Source: Halothermothrix orenii H 168
GTDB lineage: Bacteria > Bacillota > Halanaerobiia > Halanaerobiales > Halothermotrichaceae
Reading direction: 5' to 3'
Assembly: GCF_000020485.1 (NCBI RefSeq)
Contig: NC_011899.1
Span: 407,501-471,500 of the forward strand
DNA: 64,000 bases
Position numbers and translations under genes: made by a program. Shown piece by piece: positions 56,973-64,000 of this stretch. Below the pieces are notes generated by a model, which was given only the letters and a program-made list of their open reading frames with translations, made no database searches and had not been told where the DNA came from. Positions within the stretch are counted from its first letter, which is position 1, and every line of letters starts with the position of its first letter.

Positions 56973-57006
56973 AAGAAGCAGTTTTTCTGAACTGCTTCTT
57001 TTTTTT
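56973..57006 (+). terminator. Terminator closing the beta-glucan locus
   Basis: An 11-bp perfect stem AAGAAGCAGTT / AACTGCTTCTT with loop tttctg, followed by eight T. A clear boundary to the next cluster. Confidence 0.92.
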
Positions 57007-57405
57007 ATTGAAATAAATTAAAAAAACTCTTTCTGTAGTCTAAAAGACCTATTATCAAATAGATATAAAAAAATATTAATATTAAGAAGGAAATTAATGG
57101 AACATAATAGAAATACTAAATAAATGAAAAAATTAACAATATTGATTATATGAAAAATAGATAGGAAAATATACTATTATATAGAAAAAATAATATTATA
57201 AACCAAATTATTAGTAATAAAGGAGCCGGGTTTAAATAACTGGTCCCTGTAACGGGACAGGCTTCATCAAAATAGGACAAGTTATTACATTAACAATAAC
57301 TAACCCCTTTTTTTGAAAAAGTGTTTTACAAATTTTATTTTTTATGAGGATGATATTTAGCTAATTAATTGGTTTAAAAAACAATTAAAAAAGGAGGTGG
57401 AGGTC
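57007..57405 (+). other. AT-rich leader region of the RiPP cluster
   Basis: No gene found. A small hairpin gtccc-tgtaac-gggac lies at ~57242-57257. TTGAAA (57313 region), a 17-bp gap and TATTTT give a weak promoter candidate. The ribosome binding site aaaaggaggt at 57389-57398 serves the precursor. No LacI operator of the glucan type is present. Confidence 0.5.
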
Positions 57406-57597
57406 GTGAATTGGTGTGCTGCTTGTTCTGCCTGTTCTGCATGTGCAGGGTGCTCAGTTGGTTGTGTTACCTGTGCTGGTTGTGGTGGCTGTGTTATTAC
57501 CCCCACACCTGACGTTGAAGTAGCGGTGACTGGTGTTGCTTCAGGGACAGTGACAGCAGCAGCAGTAGGAGGTGTAGCTGGAGTAGCCGCCTGGTAA
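57406..57597 (+). CDS. Cysteine-rich RiPP precursor peptide (sactipeptide-like)
   Basis: The GTG at 57406 lies 8 bp after aaggagg, giving 63 residues; a GTG at 57397 overlaps that site. The start 'MNWCAACSACSACAGC' leaves almost no leader. Nine Cys, six of them in CxxC steps, occur within the first 29 residues. A Pro/Thr hinge (ITPTPD) follows, then a Cys-free tail of Ala, Val, Gly and Thr ending 'VGGVAGVAAW'. Cys donors in one half and small hydrophobic acceptors in the other is the thurincin H/subtilosin plan for sulfur-to-alpha-carbon bridges. Two radical SAM genes follow. Mature product, cleavage site and activity are unknown. Confidence 0.8.
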   Translation: MNWCAACSACSACAGCSVGCVTCAGCGGCVITPTPDVEVAVTGVASGTVTAAAVGGVAGVAAW

Positions 57598-57608
57598 TGG
57601 TACTTATG

Positions 57609-57641
57609 TTAATGGTGGGGTAGAATATATCCCACCATTAA
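57609..57641 (+). terminator. Hairpin between precursor and modification genes
   Basis: TTAATGGTGGG pairs fully with CCCACCATTAA around an 11-nt loop and is followed by cccatcttttt. It sits 12 bp after the precursor stop, and 110 bp of AT-rich leader separates it from the first enzyme. It probably gives partial termination so that precursor is made in excess. Confidence 0.75.
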
Positions 57642-57750
57642 CCCATCTTTTTAGAGTTCTGGGGGTGTTTAGCTTTTAAGCTCCCATTTAATTATTATAA
57701 ATAATTATTATGAAATATCTAAATTAAATAATGGGAAGTAGGGTGAAAAA

Positions 57751-59130
57751 ATGTCACAAACTTTTATTACTGATAAAATGAAAGAAAATCTTGATAAATA
57801 TATTATTTTTAATGAGGACGTAGTTGATATTATCTTTAGATACCCCGACAGGGTTCTAGTTTATAATCATGATACGAGCGGATTGAGTAGATTTATGGGC
57901 TTTGGACTTGATATCCTGTATGATGATTCCCTTGACATTCTGTTGAATAATCCCGACAAATTACTTGGAGAATATAAGCCAGAGTTTATTACTAAATACA
58001 TAGAATACTATTATTTCAAAAACTGGATTTGTTTTAGCGATACCCCTAAAACAGAATATAAAATTAGATTTTTGGGAAGTAAAGATTATTACATACCTGG
58101 TCACCTGGCTATAGAACTGACGGATAAATGTAATCTCGCTTGCAAACATTGTTATCGGGATTCAACAAAAAAAGGTAAATTAATGGATACTCAGAAGTTA
58201 TTTTCATTAATAGATATGCTAACTGAAAAAGGATTAATTATTGTGGAGCTAACAGGGGGTGAAATAACCCTTCATCCTGATTTCTGTGAAATAGTTGATT
58301 ATTTGGCCCAGAAGCTCGATATAATTGCTTTATTAACAAATGGTTATGAATACAATCAGGAAATAATAGAATGTATTCTAAGAAACAAAGATAAAGTAAT
58401 GGTTAATGTTAGTCTGGATAGTTATGACCAGGAATTTCATGACAATTTTAGAGGGAAAAAAGGTGCCTGGGAAAGGGCATACAATTTGGTTAAAACACTG
58501 GCATCAAATGAAGTTCCAACCAGAATAGCGATGGCTATTACACCAGAGAACTTATTTCATATCGAAAAAACAATATTATTAGCCAAAGAATTAGGGATAA
58601 AAAACTTTGCATGGGATCAGGTATCCCAATTTGGTAGAGGAAGTAGTATTGATTGGAGTAAGGTAACACCTGAAGAGTATTTTGAATATGAAAAGCAAAG
58701 CAAATATTTGTTTAAAAAATATTATGATATGTTAACCTTGATTCCAGCCAAAATAACCAGACAGATGAAAGTTGAAGGATTAAACTGTGGGGCTGGCTGG
58801 AGAACCTTTGCCCTTGACCCTGATGGTAATTTAAGATTATGTGTGAATTCAGAACTTGATTTATTCAAGATTGGGAATGTATTTGAAGAAGGTATGAGCA
58901 TTTTTAAAAAAGAACTGTTACAAGAGTTTGCAAAAGTCTCTATGCCCAGGTATAGAACTTGTAAAAATTGTAATTATTTTAGTTTTTGCGATAGCTGTAC
59001 ACTTAAGGGTTTAATAGGTGCTAAGAATAATAAAAACTGTGTCTGGGATGGGAAGAAGCTAGCCAGAAAAGTCAGGACAAGGCAGACTATAAATATTAGT
59101 TGCCTTAGTAAAAAGACTATTTCAAAATAA
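57751..59130 (+). CDS. Radical SAM-SPASM peptide maturase 1
   Basis: 459 residues. An N-terminal domain (~1-115) without a recognised fold may hold the precursor-binding element. The radical SAM barrel has CNLACKHC near 130 and 'VELTGGEITLHPDF' for SAM contact. The C-terminal SPASM domain has C-x12-G-x4-C ('CGAGWRTFALDPDGNLRLC'), then CxxC-x5-CxxC ('CKNCNYFSFCDSC') and a final Cys, enough for two extra 4Fe-4S clusters. This is the layout of sactisynthases and ranthipeptide synthases that form thioether bridges. It directly follows the Cys-rich precursor, so thioether formation is the likely reaction (inference). Confidence 0.88.
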   Translation: MSQTFITDKMKENLDKYIIFNEDVVDIIFRYPDRVLVYNHDTSGLSRFMGFGLDILYDDSLDILLNNPDKLLGEYKPEFITKYIEYYYFKNWICFSDTPKTEYKIRFLGSKDYYIPGHLAIELTDKCNLACKHCYRDSTKKGKLMDTQKLFSLIDMLTEKGLIIVELTGGEITLHPDFCEIVDYLAQKLDIIALLTNGYEYNQEIIECILRNKDKVMVNVSLDSYDQEFHDNFRGKKGAWERAYNLVKTLASNEVPTRIAMAITPENLFHIEKTILLAKELGIKNFAWDQVSQFGRGSSIDWSKVTPEEYFEYEKQSKYLFKKYYDMLTLIPAKITRQMKVEGLNCGAGWRTFALDPDGNLRLCVNSELDLFKIGNVFEEGMSIFKKELLQEFAKVSMPRYRTCKNCNYFSFCDSCTLKGLIGAKNNKNCVWDGKKLARKVRTRQTINISCLSKKTISK

Positions 59131-59161
59131 GAAAACAATAATGAGAGTGGGGTGTAAACTG

Positions 59162-60172
59162 TTGATCAAGGAAAGTCTTTCTACGGTTACATTGAATGTA
59201 ACTAGTAAGTGTAATTATAATTGTAGTTATTGTGCTTCATGTAACAAAGAGGATTTACTTGAATTAAAAGATATAAAGATGATTATTGACAATACAGTTA
59301 AGTTAAAAACTCAATATCTTATACTTTCTGGGGGAGAACCAACTTTACGAAATGACTATCAAGATATTATTGACTATGCAAATAAAAACGGGTTAATTAC
59401 TGTTTTGTTTAGTAATGGTAGTCAAATTGACAATGTGGCAGCTGATTATATAAAAGAAAATATTAATATAGTTAGATTTACCCTGGATAGTACAAAAGAA
59501 GAAAAATATGATAAAATTAAAGGCAGGGGAACATTTGCTAATTTAATAAAAACAATAGATATGTTTAATGATAAGAAAATACCTGTTAATTTAAATATTC
59601 CAGTAAATTATGATAACATTGAGGAAATTGAAGACATTATCTTGTTTTCCATAGATAAGGGTATCCAGACCCTCAGGTTTGCCCCAATTATTCCTTCTGC
59701 CGATAAACATATTTATAAAACTTTATTAACCAGTATTTTCGAGAATATAATTAAGTACGAACCATTTTTTGCTTTCCCTGATTTTAAACCAGTTGGTAGC
59801 CGGGATACATTTATTAATGCGGTTTCCAATATAGACTGTCCAGGAGGTATAATATCAATTAATATTAATTCAAATGGAGAAGTGACAGTATGTTCATTTT
59901 TTGATGAAGTAACAGAAGGAAATTTGAAGGAAGAAGATTTATTTGACATCTGGTTTAATAATTATGAAAAAAATTTAAATCAAAAATGTAAAGTTATCGA
60001 TGTTGATATTGGCGAATTGTTGTCAGAAGTCTTGACAGATAAAATGTGGGGTTATTCAGCTGTCAGGAAAGCAATAAGTTTTTGGTATACTGAAATTGCC
60101 GGTAAAGAAAAAATGTGTTATCGCGGTTTTCCATTCTGGCAGTTATATTTTTCACGGAAGCCGGGTGAGTAG
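59162..60172 (+). CDS. Radical SAM peptide maturase 2 (reduced SPASM)
   Basis: 336 residues from TTG 59162, ~9 bp after ggggtg; an ATG at 59141 in frame lacks a ribosome binding site but is possible. CNYNCSYC starts ~17 residues in, so there is no N-terminal extension. 'LILSGGEPTLRND' is the SAM motif. The C-terminal part keeps only four late cysteines (in 'DCPGG', 'VTVCSFF', 'NQKCKV' and 'KMCYRG'), a twitch or shortened SPASM. It is clearly different from the first enzyme. Two radical SAM enzymes recall thuricin CD. The second may bridge other Cys residues or do a separate chemistry. Confidence 0.85.
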   Translation: MIKESLSTVTLNVTSKCNYNCSYCASCNKEDLLELKDIKMIIDNTVKLKTQYLILSGGEPTLRNDYQDIIDYANKNGLITVLFSNGSQIDNVAADYIKENINIVRFTLDSTKEEKYDKIKGRGTFANLIKTIDMFNDKKIPVNLNIPVNYDNIEEIEDIILFSIDKGIQTLRFAPIIPSADKHIYKTLLTSIFENIIKYEPFFAFPDFKPVGSRDTFINAVSNIDCPGGIISININSNGEVTVCSFFDEVTEGNLKEEDLFDIWFNNYEKNLNQKCKVIDVDIGELLSEVLTDKMWGYSAVRKAISFWYTEIAGKEKMCYRGFPFWQLYFSRKPGE

Positions 60173-60173
60173 C

Positions 60174-60881
60174 ATGGCCAATATAATAGAGATAAAAAAT
60201 TTGAAAAAAATAATTAATAACAAATTGATCCTTAAAGGTGTTTCGTTAAACATTCCCCAGGGGAGTATTTTTGGGTTGATTGGGCCAAACGGGGCCGGTA
60301 AAACAACCTTAATTAGACATCTTCTAGGTTTGTATAAACCTACAGAAGGTCAAATTTTAATTATGTCAAACAGTGAAAGACATATTAAAAATAAGATTGG
60401 GTTCATGCTTCATGCAACGGGGCTTTATCCAGTTCTAACCTGTTATCAGAATCTGGACCTATATGCTACAATTTATAATTTAAATAATTCCGAAAAGAAG
60501 ATTAATAATATCTTAAAAACTGTAGGACTTTTAAATCGTAAAAATGACCGGGTTGCTGAGCTTTCAAAGGGAATGAAGCAAAAACTTGTTTTAGCCAGAG
60601 CTTTATTACATGAGCCTGAGATATTAATACTGGATGAGCCTACCGTGGGATTAGAAATTGAGATGAAAGTTTGGTTTAGAAATTTTATTAAGACTTTTGT
60701 TGATGATAAATTACGTACAGTAATAATTTCTTCACATGAATTATCAGAATTAGAGAAAATATGTACTCATGTTGCTATAATAAGGGATGGGATGATTGTC
60801 AAACAATATAGAAAAAATGAATTACCAACAGATGTCTCCCTTGAAGATCTTTATTTGAAGTCTGGTGGTGAAATGTCTTGA
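60174..60881 (+). CDS. ABC transporter ATPase for peptide export/immunity
   Basis: 235 residues from ATG 60174, directly after the maturase stop; earlier in-frame ATG 60096 lies inside that gene. Walker A is GPNGAGKTT, the signature 'LSKGMKQKLVLARAL' and Walker B 'ILILDEPTVGLE', all complete. It belongs to the ABC-2 (CcmA/drug export) class, without peptidase or membrane domain. It overlaps the next gene by TTGA. It would power the two following membrane proteins to export the peptide or protect the producer. Confidence 0.92.
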   Translation: MANIIEIKNLKKIINNKLILKGVSLNIPQGSIFGLIGPNGAGKTTLIRHLLGLYKPTEGQILIMSNSERHIKNKIGFMLHATGLYPVLTCYQNLDLYATIYNLNNSEKKINNILKTVGLLNRKNDRVAELSKGMKQKLVLARALLHEPEILILDEPTVGLEIEMKVWFRNFIKTFVDDKLRTVIISSHELSELEKICTHVAIIRDGMIVKQYRKNELPTDVSLEDLYLKSGGEMS

Positions 60882-61564
60882 GTATATTAACTAAAGAATT
60901 CAGGCTTCTTTATGGTAATAAAGTGTTTTTGTTGTGCTTTCTCTTTTTTACATTAATTTATTCTGCGATTGGATATGGAGCCAGATATGTATATGAAGAG
61001 GTTGTTAATGATTTAAATGTGGTATATTACTTTATATTTGTATATTCTATGTCATTAACTTTACTTATGCTTCAGGTTTATCCAGCATCCAATGATATTA
61101 GAGAACAGGCCTATGGTGGTGTTGAAAATATTCTGGCTACAGGTTACCCTTTAAGTAAGTTAATATTACATAAAATGTTACCAATATTTAGCGCCCTATA
61201 TCTCCCATCATCAATAATGGTTGTAATTATTATAATATGGAGTAAGTTGTACCTAGCGGGGCTGGTTGCTTTATTATGTATATTACCGGTAATCAATGCT
61301 GGATTATCTTTAATTTATACCTGTACAGTTCTTCTATCTCCCATTCCTGGTATGGTAATGAATCAGATATCTTTTTATGCAGTAGCTGGTATTTTCCTTT
61401 TAAGTTATGGTCCGGTATTGATTTATAGAACTACTGGTTATGTTGTAGGAATTAAAGTAAGTATATTATTATCTTTTGTCTTTTCTCTCCTGGTAGGATT
61501 TAGGGCGTACAGGAAGTTTAAAAAAACAGATAAAGAAACAATTATTATAAGGGGAGACTATTGA
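60878..61564 (+). CDS. ABC-2-type permease subunit A
   Basis: 228 residues, TTG start overlapping the ATPase stop. Six membrane helices fill the chain. Short conserved segments 'ASNDIREQAYGGVENILATGYPLSKLI' (given as positions ~74-100) lie on the cytoplasmic side and probably touch the ATPase. No peptidase. It is remotely similar to permease B in the 'ENLLATG' type loop, so the two likely form a heterodimer. Confidence 0.8.
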   Translation: MSILTKEFRLLYGNKVFLLCFLFFTLIYSAIGYGARYVYEEVVNDLNVVYYFIFVYSMSLTLLMLQVYPASNDIREQAYGGVENILATGYPLSKLILHKMLPIFSALYLPSSIMVVIIIIWSKLYLAGLVALLCILPVINAGLSLIYTCTVLLSPIPGMVMNQISFYAVAGIFLLSYGPVLIYRTTGYVVGIKVSILLSFVFSLLVGFRAYRKFKKTDKETIIIRGDY

Positions 61565-62223
61565 TGATTTTAGAAATAACAAATTATCTTACTAGGTATG
61601 AAAAGTACGAACCGGTTAACCAACATATCGATAAAAGACTTGTAAATACCTTTAGTATTATCCTTCCGATAGTATTATTTATTATTTTGAAAAAATTAAA
61701 TCTGGTTTTAAGCTTTAATGCTATTTTGTTATACCTTTATGTAAATATTTTTGTCAGAGTCAATACTCTGGCACTCCGGGTTATATCAAAAAAATATGGA
61801 GGGATTTACGAAAACCTATTAGCTACAGGTATGGGCAGAAAACATTTAATAATTATTGAAACACTAATATATATAAAGCAAAACTGGGTGAAGATAATCC
61901 TTTTTAATTCCTCTATTACTCTGGGATATTATTTAATAAATTTAAAATTAATGTCAGTATATAATTTGTTAGTATTTTTACTTATAGCAAATATAATATC
62001 TATAATATTACATTTAATTGTGGGAGCAATAACAGTAATAAATGGGATGGTCAATAATTCTTTAGCCCAGTTGATAACATTAATTGGATGGGGAAGTGGA
62101 CTTGTTTTATTTTTATCCAAGCATATTATTATAAAAATTACAGTTCCGCTAGTAGTAATTTGTTTGTTGGGTGGTTATTCTGTTATTAATATATTAATTA
62201 AAGAAGATTATGAAGTTATATAG
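61564..62223 (+). CDS. ABC-2-type permease subunit B
   Basis: 219 residues; ATG 61564 shares a base with the preceding stop. About six hydrophobic helices. The loop 'KKYGGIYENLLATGMGRKHL' parallels 'GGVENILATGYPLSKL' in permease A, which shows common origin despite low similarity elsewhere. It is the last gene of the cluster. Very AT-rich codon use (ata, tta, aat) resembles the rest of the cluster. Confidence 0.8.
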   Translation: MILEITNYLTRYEKYEPVNQHIDKRLVNTFSIILPIVLFIILKKLNLVLSFNAILLYLYVNIFVRVNTLALRVISKKYGGIYENLLATGMGRKHLIIIETLIYIKQNWVKIILFNSSITLGYYLINLKLMSVYNLLVFLLIANIISIILHLIVGAITVINGMVNNSLAQLITLIGWGSGLVLFLSKHIIIKITVPLVVICLLGGYSVINILIKEDYEVI

Positions 62224-62339: not shown

Positions 62340-62375
62340 ACCACAGGGATATCCCCCTGTGGTATAATTTTTTTT
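62340..62375 (+). terminator. Terminator of the RiPP cluster
   Basis: ACCACAGGG / CCCTGTGGT with loop atatcc, then ataa and eight T. Marks the end of the operon. Confidence 0.9.
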
Positions 62376-63723: not shown

Positions 63724-63767
63724 TTGACAATTACTAATTCCTGTTTTATAATGAATATAAATTCATT
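63724..63767 (+). promoter_or_regulatory. Consensus promoter with overlapping TetR operator
   Basis: TTGACA (63724-63729), 17 bp, TATAAT (63747-63752): a perfect sigma-A promoter. The palindrome AATGAAT-ATAA-ATTCATT (63750-63767) overlaps the -10 box and transcription start, ideal for autorepression by the TetR protein encoded next. Confidence 0.85.
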
Positions 63768-63789
63768 TAAATACCAGAAGGTGAGTTGG

Positions 63790-64000
63790 ATGCCAAAAAT
63801 AATTAAGGATATTGAGGAACGTATTTTTAATGCAGCCTTAAAACTTTTTGCTGAAAGAGGATATAATAAAGTGAATATGAAAATGGTGGCAAAAGAAGCG
63901 GGTATTGCGGTTGGAACTTTATATAACTACTTTCCCAATAAACTTGGTTTATTTTTGAGTGTGCTGGAAACAAATTTTAAAAAACCTTTGAAAAGCTTAA
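63790..64000 (+). CDS. TetR-family regulator, N-terminal part (cut by window end)
   Basis: ATG 63790 with aggtgag ahead; 70 codons lie in the window and the frame is still open at its end. It contains the TetR DNA-binding domain: 'IFNAALKLFAERGYNKVNMK' then 'VAKEAGIAVGTLYNYFPNK', with the usual Y-F-x-N-K. The ligand-binding part lies outside. Its own promoter carries a palindrome, supporting autoregulation. Confidence 0.93.
   Translation, partial: MPKIIKDIEERIFNAALKLFAERGYNKVNMKMVAKEAGIAVGTLYNYFPNKLGLFLSVLETNFKKPLKSL

Follow-up and report, generated by a model that had tools for sequence, protein, structure and literature searches.

The locus described here lies on the plus strand of a 64,000-nucleotide stretch of the Halothermothrix orenii H 168 chromosome (the window, to whose first letter all positions refer unless a locus prefix is given), the chromosome having been published at 2,578,146 bases (PMC2626281). 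It comprises a Cys-rich precursor gene, a hairpin, two radical SAM genes (rSAM1 and rSAM2), an ABC ATPase gene and two permease genes, in that order (Table 1). From rSAM1 to the last permease, neighbouring genes overlap or are separated by no more than 10 nt. An earlier note on this DNA had claimed this order and tight packing, with a SPASM enzyme first, a second radical SAM enzyme with a reduced C-terminus, and an ATPase followed by two membrane proteins, and each of these parts was recovered by our analysis. The closing terminator that it had described is also real, but it lies beyond the end given there for the cluster (62223). The G+C content of the cluster is 31.6%, below the window mean of 36.5%. 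No protease gene was found within the cluster, and the promoter scan returned 36 hits against 36.0 expected by chance. Further along the window, a regulator-like gene beside DegV (TetR-like by eye) appears to be split into two ORFs, 63724-64008 and 64008-64349, which meet at one base, so that a frameshift or a coupled pair is possible (window 63724-64000 onwards; L025:11225-11850).

Table 1. Features of the H. orenii radical SAM cluster and of the related cluster L049.
Feature	Position	Strand	Description and evidence
Terminator of upstream chemoreceptor gene	56973-57000	+	Sets that gene apart from the cluster
Possible longer leader	57364-57405	+	14 in-frame codons, MNWFKKQLKKEVEV; open frame; ATT start 57364
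Cluster	57406-62223	+	Precursor, hairpin, rSAM1, rSAM2, ABC ATPase, permease 1, permease 2
Precursor	57406-57597	+	63 aa, MNWCAACSACSACAGCSVGCVTCAGCGGCVITPTPDVEVAVTGVASGTVTAAAVGGVAGVAAW; ORF, GTG start, ribosome-binding site, codon-position G+C, layout shared with relatives
Terminator-like hairpin in precursor/enzyme gap	57608-57642	+	15 pairs, -25.8 kcal/mol, z -3.1, then T-rich tail
rSAM1, AlbA/SkfB-type radical SAM enzyme	57751-59130	+	459 aa; Radical_SAM and SPASM matches
rSAM2, radical SAM enzyme	59141-60172	+	343 aa; Radical_SAM match, and a SPASM match limited to positions 1-46 of 67
ABC transporter ATPase	60174-60881	+	235 aa; PF00005 8.7e-35; drrA and lantibiotic-protection families
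ABC-2-type permease 1	60878-61564	+	Six hydrophobic segments; motif GVENILATGYPLSK
ABC-2-type permease 2	61561-62223	+	Six hydrophobic segments; ATG at 61564
Intrinsic terminator of cluster	62340-62363	+	-17 kcal/mol, z -3.3, T-rich tail
L049 cluster	L049:296-4737		Contig JAHIPG010000051.1, 5.9 kb, MAG labelled Nanoarchaeota; two radical SAM genes

The precursor carries nine evenly spaced cysteines (positions 4, 7, 10, 13, 16, 20, 23, 26 and 29), and the 34 residues after the last of them are free of Cys. The Cys run leads into a TPTPD turn, followed by a 27-residue tail made up chiefly of Val, Ala, Gly and Thr. In having its Cys donors towards the N-terminus and an acceptor region towards the C-terminus, the peptide is built like the precursor of a sactipeptide. 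Scanning the reading frames of the 64 kb window gave no other CxxC-type run with over five Cys. The precursor was also the only Cys-rich ORF upstream of the enzymes with both a start codon and a ribosome-binding site; the sole other frame with such a run overlaps the precursor. The G+C content at codon positions 1, 2 and 3 is 63, 75 and 27%, and the third position tracks the AT-rich genome, a pattern expected of a genuine coding sequence.

The start codon of the precursor determines how much leader precedes the Cys run. A GGAGG ribosome-binding site (57393-57397) lies 8 nt before the GTG at 57406, which gives three residues before the first Cys, whereas a start at ATT 57364 would give 17. The longer form has no standard start codon and its ribosome-binding site is badly spaced. 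The six codons upstream of the GTG resemble their counterpart in L049, the best-matching relative (P about 0.0001 under a simple null), and the Trp behind this likeness precedes any standard start in L049. Because of the well-placed ribosome-binding site before the short form in H. orenii and the equivalent site in L049, we favour the short form with moderate confidence, and on this reading of the sequence the leader looks minimal (M-N-W-C...).

Enzyme rSAM1 is predicted to belong to the AlbA/SkfB type. Its CX3CX2C motif is at 127/131/134 and its SPASM domain is complete, with seven Cys (346, 364, 404, 407, 413, 416 and 430), and it retains every Cys that is invariant in an 18-sequence alignment. 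The top NCBIfam match was AlbA (model NF012164), at 205 bits, below the curated cut-off of 850 bits, and the CteB and PapB families were also matched. The structure model (pLDDT 78.1) matched the fold of SkfB best, then SuiB and CteB, over most of its length, and a sequence comparison with solved structures likewise put SkfB first for rSAM1 and rSAM2 alike. In the model, the N-terminal 100 residues form three strands followed by helices and resemble an RRE, the part around the middle helix being of low confidence. The alignment places a deletion of about 19 residues at the middle helix of the relatives. With this region shortened and a leader of perhaps no more than three residues, it cannot be taken for granted that the leader guides recognition as it does in thurincin H. 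The idea that a degenerate RRE goes together with a missing leader found no support, as L049 has a short leader and yet a full RRE.

The CX3CX2C motif of rSAM2 is at 24/28/31; the protein begins only 23 residues before it, and so there is no N-terminal recognition domain. The true start could be TTG 59162. Of the SPASM set, Cys 233, 251 and 283 are kept, and the CxxCx5C stretch is absent; by analogy with the ligand assignment of TrnC, rSAM2 would retain the first auxiliary cluster but not the second. The protein has the C-terminal motif CYRGFPFW and ends in KMCYRGFPFWQLYFSRKPGE. A single-sequence structure prediction reached a pLDDT of 44, too poor to use. Two similar, longer radical SAM proteins are encoded elsewhere in the genome (L025:12589-13944 and L047:6627-8015; 451 and 462 aa), the former about 3 kb downstream of the cluster and the latter with no precursor-like ORF noticed alongside.

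Matches to rSAM1 in 38 genomes of the order were at best 25-31% identical and confined to the core, rSAM2 had no match above 30-31% identity in 59 genomes of the class, and no full-length close relative of rSAM1 was found in the order or in a 398-genome sample of the phylum. With matches in the order and class this weak, there was no orthologous cluster for comparison. When rSAM1 was the sole query, scanning IMG/VR and GTDB contigs for close relatives gave no match. A scan of GTDB contigs with a three-sequence alignment gave 34 loci, the 20 best of which were inspected. Most of these 20 share the same layout of precursor, AlbA-like enzyme, ABC ATPase and permeases, and their precursors have a (Cxx)nC run of three to five Cys and a small-residue tail averaging 21 residues. 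The hosts include Elusimicrobia, Bacillota (Blautia, Eisenbergiella, Anaerococcus, Paenibacillus and Enterococcus) and archaeal bins (Methanothrix, Euryarchaeota and Nanoarchaeota). Nine Cys are unmatched among the relatives, and the 34-residue tail is shared in length by a Methanothrix MAG alone; across relatives, tail length showed no correlation with Cys number (rho -0.04 when H. orenii is left out). A long branch leads to rSAM1 in the tree; it falls outside the Bacillota group (100/100) and has no sister with support. The motif GVENILATGYPLSK of permease 1 weakly recalls one in the permeases of the relatives, and profile comparison of the permeases gave weak matches only. With its short precursor, AlbA/SkfB-type radical SAM enzyme, ABC ATPase and ABC-2 permeases, the cluster falls by comparison within a wide range of sactipeptide clusters of the thurincin H-like kind.

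Some of the related loci have features of their own. Elusimicrobia carry a family of AlbA-like enzymes (L050:5215-7074, L051:2-1851, L052:5493-7179, L054:5461-7077 and L055:2953-4558) accompanied by one to three Cys-rich precursors with MSNPxI-like leaders, and ABC-2 genes mostly come next. At another five loci, from genomes of the Elusimicrobia phylum, a second radical SAM gene is absent. Long leaders precede the same CxxC core in a Methanothrix MAG (about 80 residues, L053:3-428) and a Hyphomicrobiales MAG (about 50 residues, L056:5267-5515), against the usual 10-13 residues, as if leaders had been swapped.

The best match to rSAM1 was in L049 (37% identity; 44% for the ABC ATPase). The contig itself looks archaeal because it carries a fragment of a Hel308-type archaeal helicase, and L049 is in its own right a candidate archaeal sactipeptide locus of the thurincin H-like kind. 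Its precursor, MPLWCVGCAACAICTLCNWWDPNANAAGFVGFVAFTAW, has a short leader and an AW end, and the two peptides compare as MPLWC...TAW and MNWC...AAW, with a W-C start in both. Beside the precursor, L049 also has a second radical SAM gene, whose product is the best match of rSAM2 in that genome, has a CFRSLPLW C-terminus and ends in ACFRSLPLWYYMLKK. When the C-terminus of rSAM2 was compared with 129 radical SAM ORFs, the H. orenii copies of rSAM2 being set aside, this enzyme ranked best (37, next 31), a score reached in 12 of 5000 shuffles; a CYRGFPFW-like C-terminal pattern was absent from the other radical SAM ORFs in the fetched loci. In contrast to H. orenii, L049 has five Cys in the precursor, a full RRE in enzyme 1, a full SPASM domain in enzyme 2, the enzyme 2 gene on the opposite strand, and one permease. 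The sequence likeness, seen in two loci, is suggestive of a subtype shared by the two clusters.

Two characterised systems are the nearest points of reference. The earlier note had drawn a parallel with thuricin CD, which holds for the two radical SAM enzymes, one with a seven-Cys SPASM domain and one with a truncated auxiliary domain. The SPASM Cys of rSAM1 (Cx12Gx4Cx39Cx2Cx5Cx2Cx13C) and TrnC (Cx11Gx4Cx36Cx2Cx5Cx2Cx14C) are spaced almost identically, a TrnC-like arrangement. The parallel fails for the precursors, of which thuricin CD has two and the present cluster one that is Cys-rich, and for the N-terminal domain of the second enzyme: TrnD has an RRE-like domain, by which it binds TrnC (PMC12093266), and a CX2CX5C stretch, whereas rSAM2 lacks both, retaining instead the first two Cys of the SPASM set. 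In the complex that TrnC and TrnD form, the truncated partner is needed while its radical chemistry is dispensable (PMC12093266). With thurincin H (thn, Bacillus thuringiensis), the cluster shares the N-terminal CxxCxxCxxC run, the small hydrophobic tail, the AlbA/SkfB-type enzyme and the ABC transporter; the precursor of the Paenibacillus relative L060 (MVAPSVEPNGITCWGCLACAACTV...) also looks like that of thurincin H, and the L060 enzyme shares 29% identity with rSAM1. The precursor had been said to match no known product; the CxxC run with a small-residue tail is the thurincin H-like pattern, but the nine Cys are indeed unmatched. Thurincin H has four Cys and a leader of about 9-13 aa, whereas the H. 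orenii precursor has a 34-aa tail and an almost absent leader; the cluster also has a second radical SAM enzyme and lacks a protease or regulator. ThnB is described as twitch type, in contrast to the full SPASM domain of rSAM1. The cluster appears as a variant of a known system type, set apart by the uncommon length of its Cys ladder and by its unusual second enzyme.

The earlier note had called two-membrane anaerobes of this kind hardly known as sactipeptide producers; H. orenii was already a predicted producer in Letzel et al. (2014; PMC4289311), where Hore_04320 is given in Table 4 as a putative sactipeptide radical SAM gene. We placed this gene by counting ORFs from published landmarks, namely Hore_04020/04030 at window 4675 and 5900 and Hore_04140 at window 20352, and checked the count on the restriction-modification genes near Hore_04440. 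Hore_04320 falls on rSAM1, or at most one gene off, on rSAM2, and so the locus has very probably been a listed sactipeptide candidate since 2014. The main-text table of that paper names neither a precursor nor a second enzyme nor any relatives of Hore_04320, and H. orenii is not mentioned by Murphy et al. (2011).

The earlier note took the locus for a RiPP cluster of the sactipeptide pattern, with two radical SAM enzymes, and this assignment is well supported by the AlbA/SkfB matches and by same-layout relatives with CxxC precursors. The scheme that follows is inferred as regards the kind, number and register of the bridges, the part played by rSAM2, what the hairpin does, the direction of transport and the activity. 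The 63-aa precursor would be made in excess, because the hairpin that follows its gene is probably a partial terminator, yielding more precursor than enzyme. rSAM1 would take hydrogen from the alpha-carbon of Ala, Gly, Val or Thr residues of the tail, which would be joined to the N-terminal cysteines, the innermost pair lying near the TPTPD turn. Where nested sactipeptides have been characterised, successive donors and acceptors are paired about a turn, and in the ladder of thuricin Z the two positions of every pair add up to 42 (PMC8172795). The tail is long enough for nine rungs of the thuricin Z type; several registers fit, and the tail residues favour none. The product would be a nested hairpin ladder with up to nine thioether rungs. 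rSAM2 would act as a partner of rSAM1, as TrnD does with TrnC, or add another change to the same peptide, and the ABC ATPase with the two six-segment permeases would export the product, protect the cell that makes it, or do both. As to its use, the peptide would most likely be a narrow-spectrum antimicrobial against related bacteria in salt-lake sediment. Taken as a whole, a sactipeptide-type operon with an alpha-carbon ladder made by rSAM1, rSAM2 as partner and ABC-2 export or protection appears fairly probable to us from the sequence.

The part given to rSAM2 is open to another reading, in which rSAM1 alone cross-links and rSAM2 makes a different change, such as epimerisation of Val and Ala in the tail. 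Stand-alone radical SAM enzymes of its size include the epimerase EpeE/YydG, and the missing recognition domain and reduced SPASM set of rSAM2 agree with such a role, as does the use of one enzyme for the same kind of precursor by nearly all relatives. However, the YydG/EpeE model (TIGR04078, threshold 300 bits) gives rSAM2 only 24 bits, below the 37 bits of rSAM1, the best solved relative of rSAM2 is the sactisynthase SkfB, and the truncated second enzyme of thuricin CD is needed for cross-linking (PMC12093266); we place a separate modification somewhat short of an even chance. A ranthipeptide-like product, with bridges at beta or gamma side-chain carbons, is quite unlikely in our judgement. 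Sequence alone leaves the attacked carbon unfixed, and CteB and PapB are among the matched families, but the closest curated and structural relatives, AlbA and SkfB, are alpha-carbon enzymes, and the separation of N-terminal Cys from C-terminal acceptors is the layout of nested sactipeptides, not that of an acceptor after each Cys.

The transporter had been taken as the cluster's own ABC-2 exporter. Such a system is present, but because its ATPase scores almost equally on the antibiotic-resistance family drrA (176 bits) and the lantibiotic-protection family (172 bits), it may serve immunity as well as export. It may even be devoted to self-immunity, the peptide leaving by another route or acting in the cell. 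One ATPase with two six-segment permeases is the LanFEG layout, and the cluster has the same. Against this, the ABC-2 system is the sole transporter of the cluster, and ABC and permease genes usually accompany precursor and enzyme in the relatives, so that we hold a purely protective role to be a sizeable possibility, not our expectation. Finally, the product of the Cys-rich ORF might simply bind metal, unmodified and with no connection to the enzymes. CxxC repeats are capable of metal binding, and no computed result spoke for this reading; in many loci from different phyla, an equivalent ORF immediately precedes the equivalent enzyme gene, which makes it highly improbable.

The reading that we prefer remains a sactipeptide-type operon, and what is unusual here is the nine-Cys precursor with its 34-residue tail, the seemingly minimal leader and the second enzyme. 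That all of the more far-reaching features hold together, namely a nine-rung ladder, a near-leaderless precursor, an enzyme pair with a shortened and a missing recognition domain, and a subtype common to one two-membrane member of the Bacillota and an archaeon, is doubtful. If the ladder forms as predicted, H. orenii, a thermophilic halophile, would provide a peptide with very many bridges and a natural test of the length that nested sactionine ladders can reach, the characterised sactipeptides in one review having two to four bridges. If the minimal leader is true, the cluster would also test how a sactisynthase finds its substrate with hardly any leader. Furthermore, the occurrence of thurincin H-like clusters in Elusimicrobia and archaeal bins extends this group beyond the Bacillota, the source of the characterised sactipeptides.
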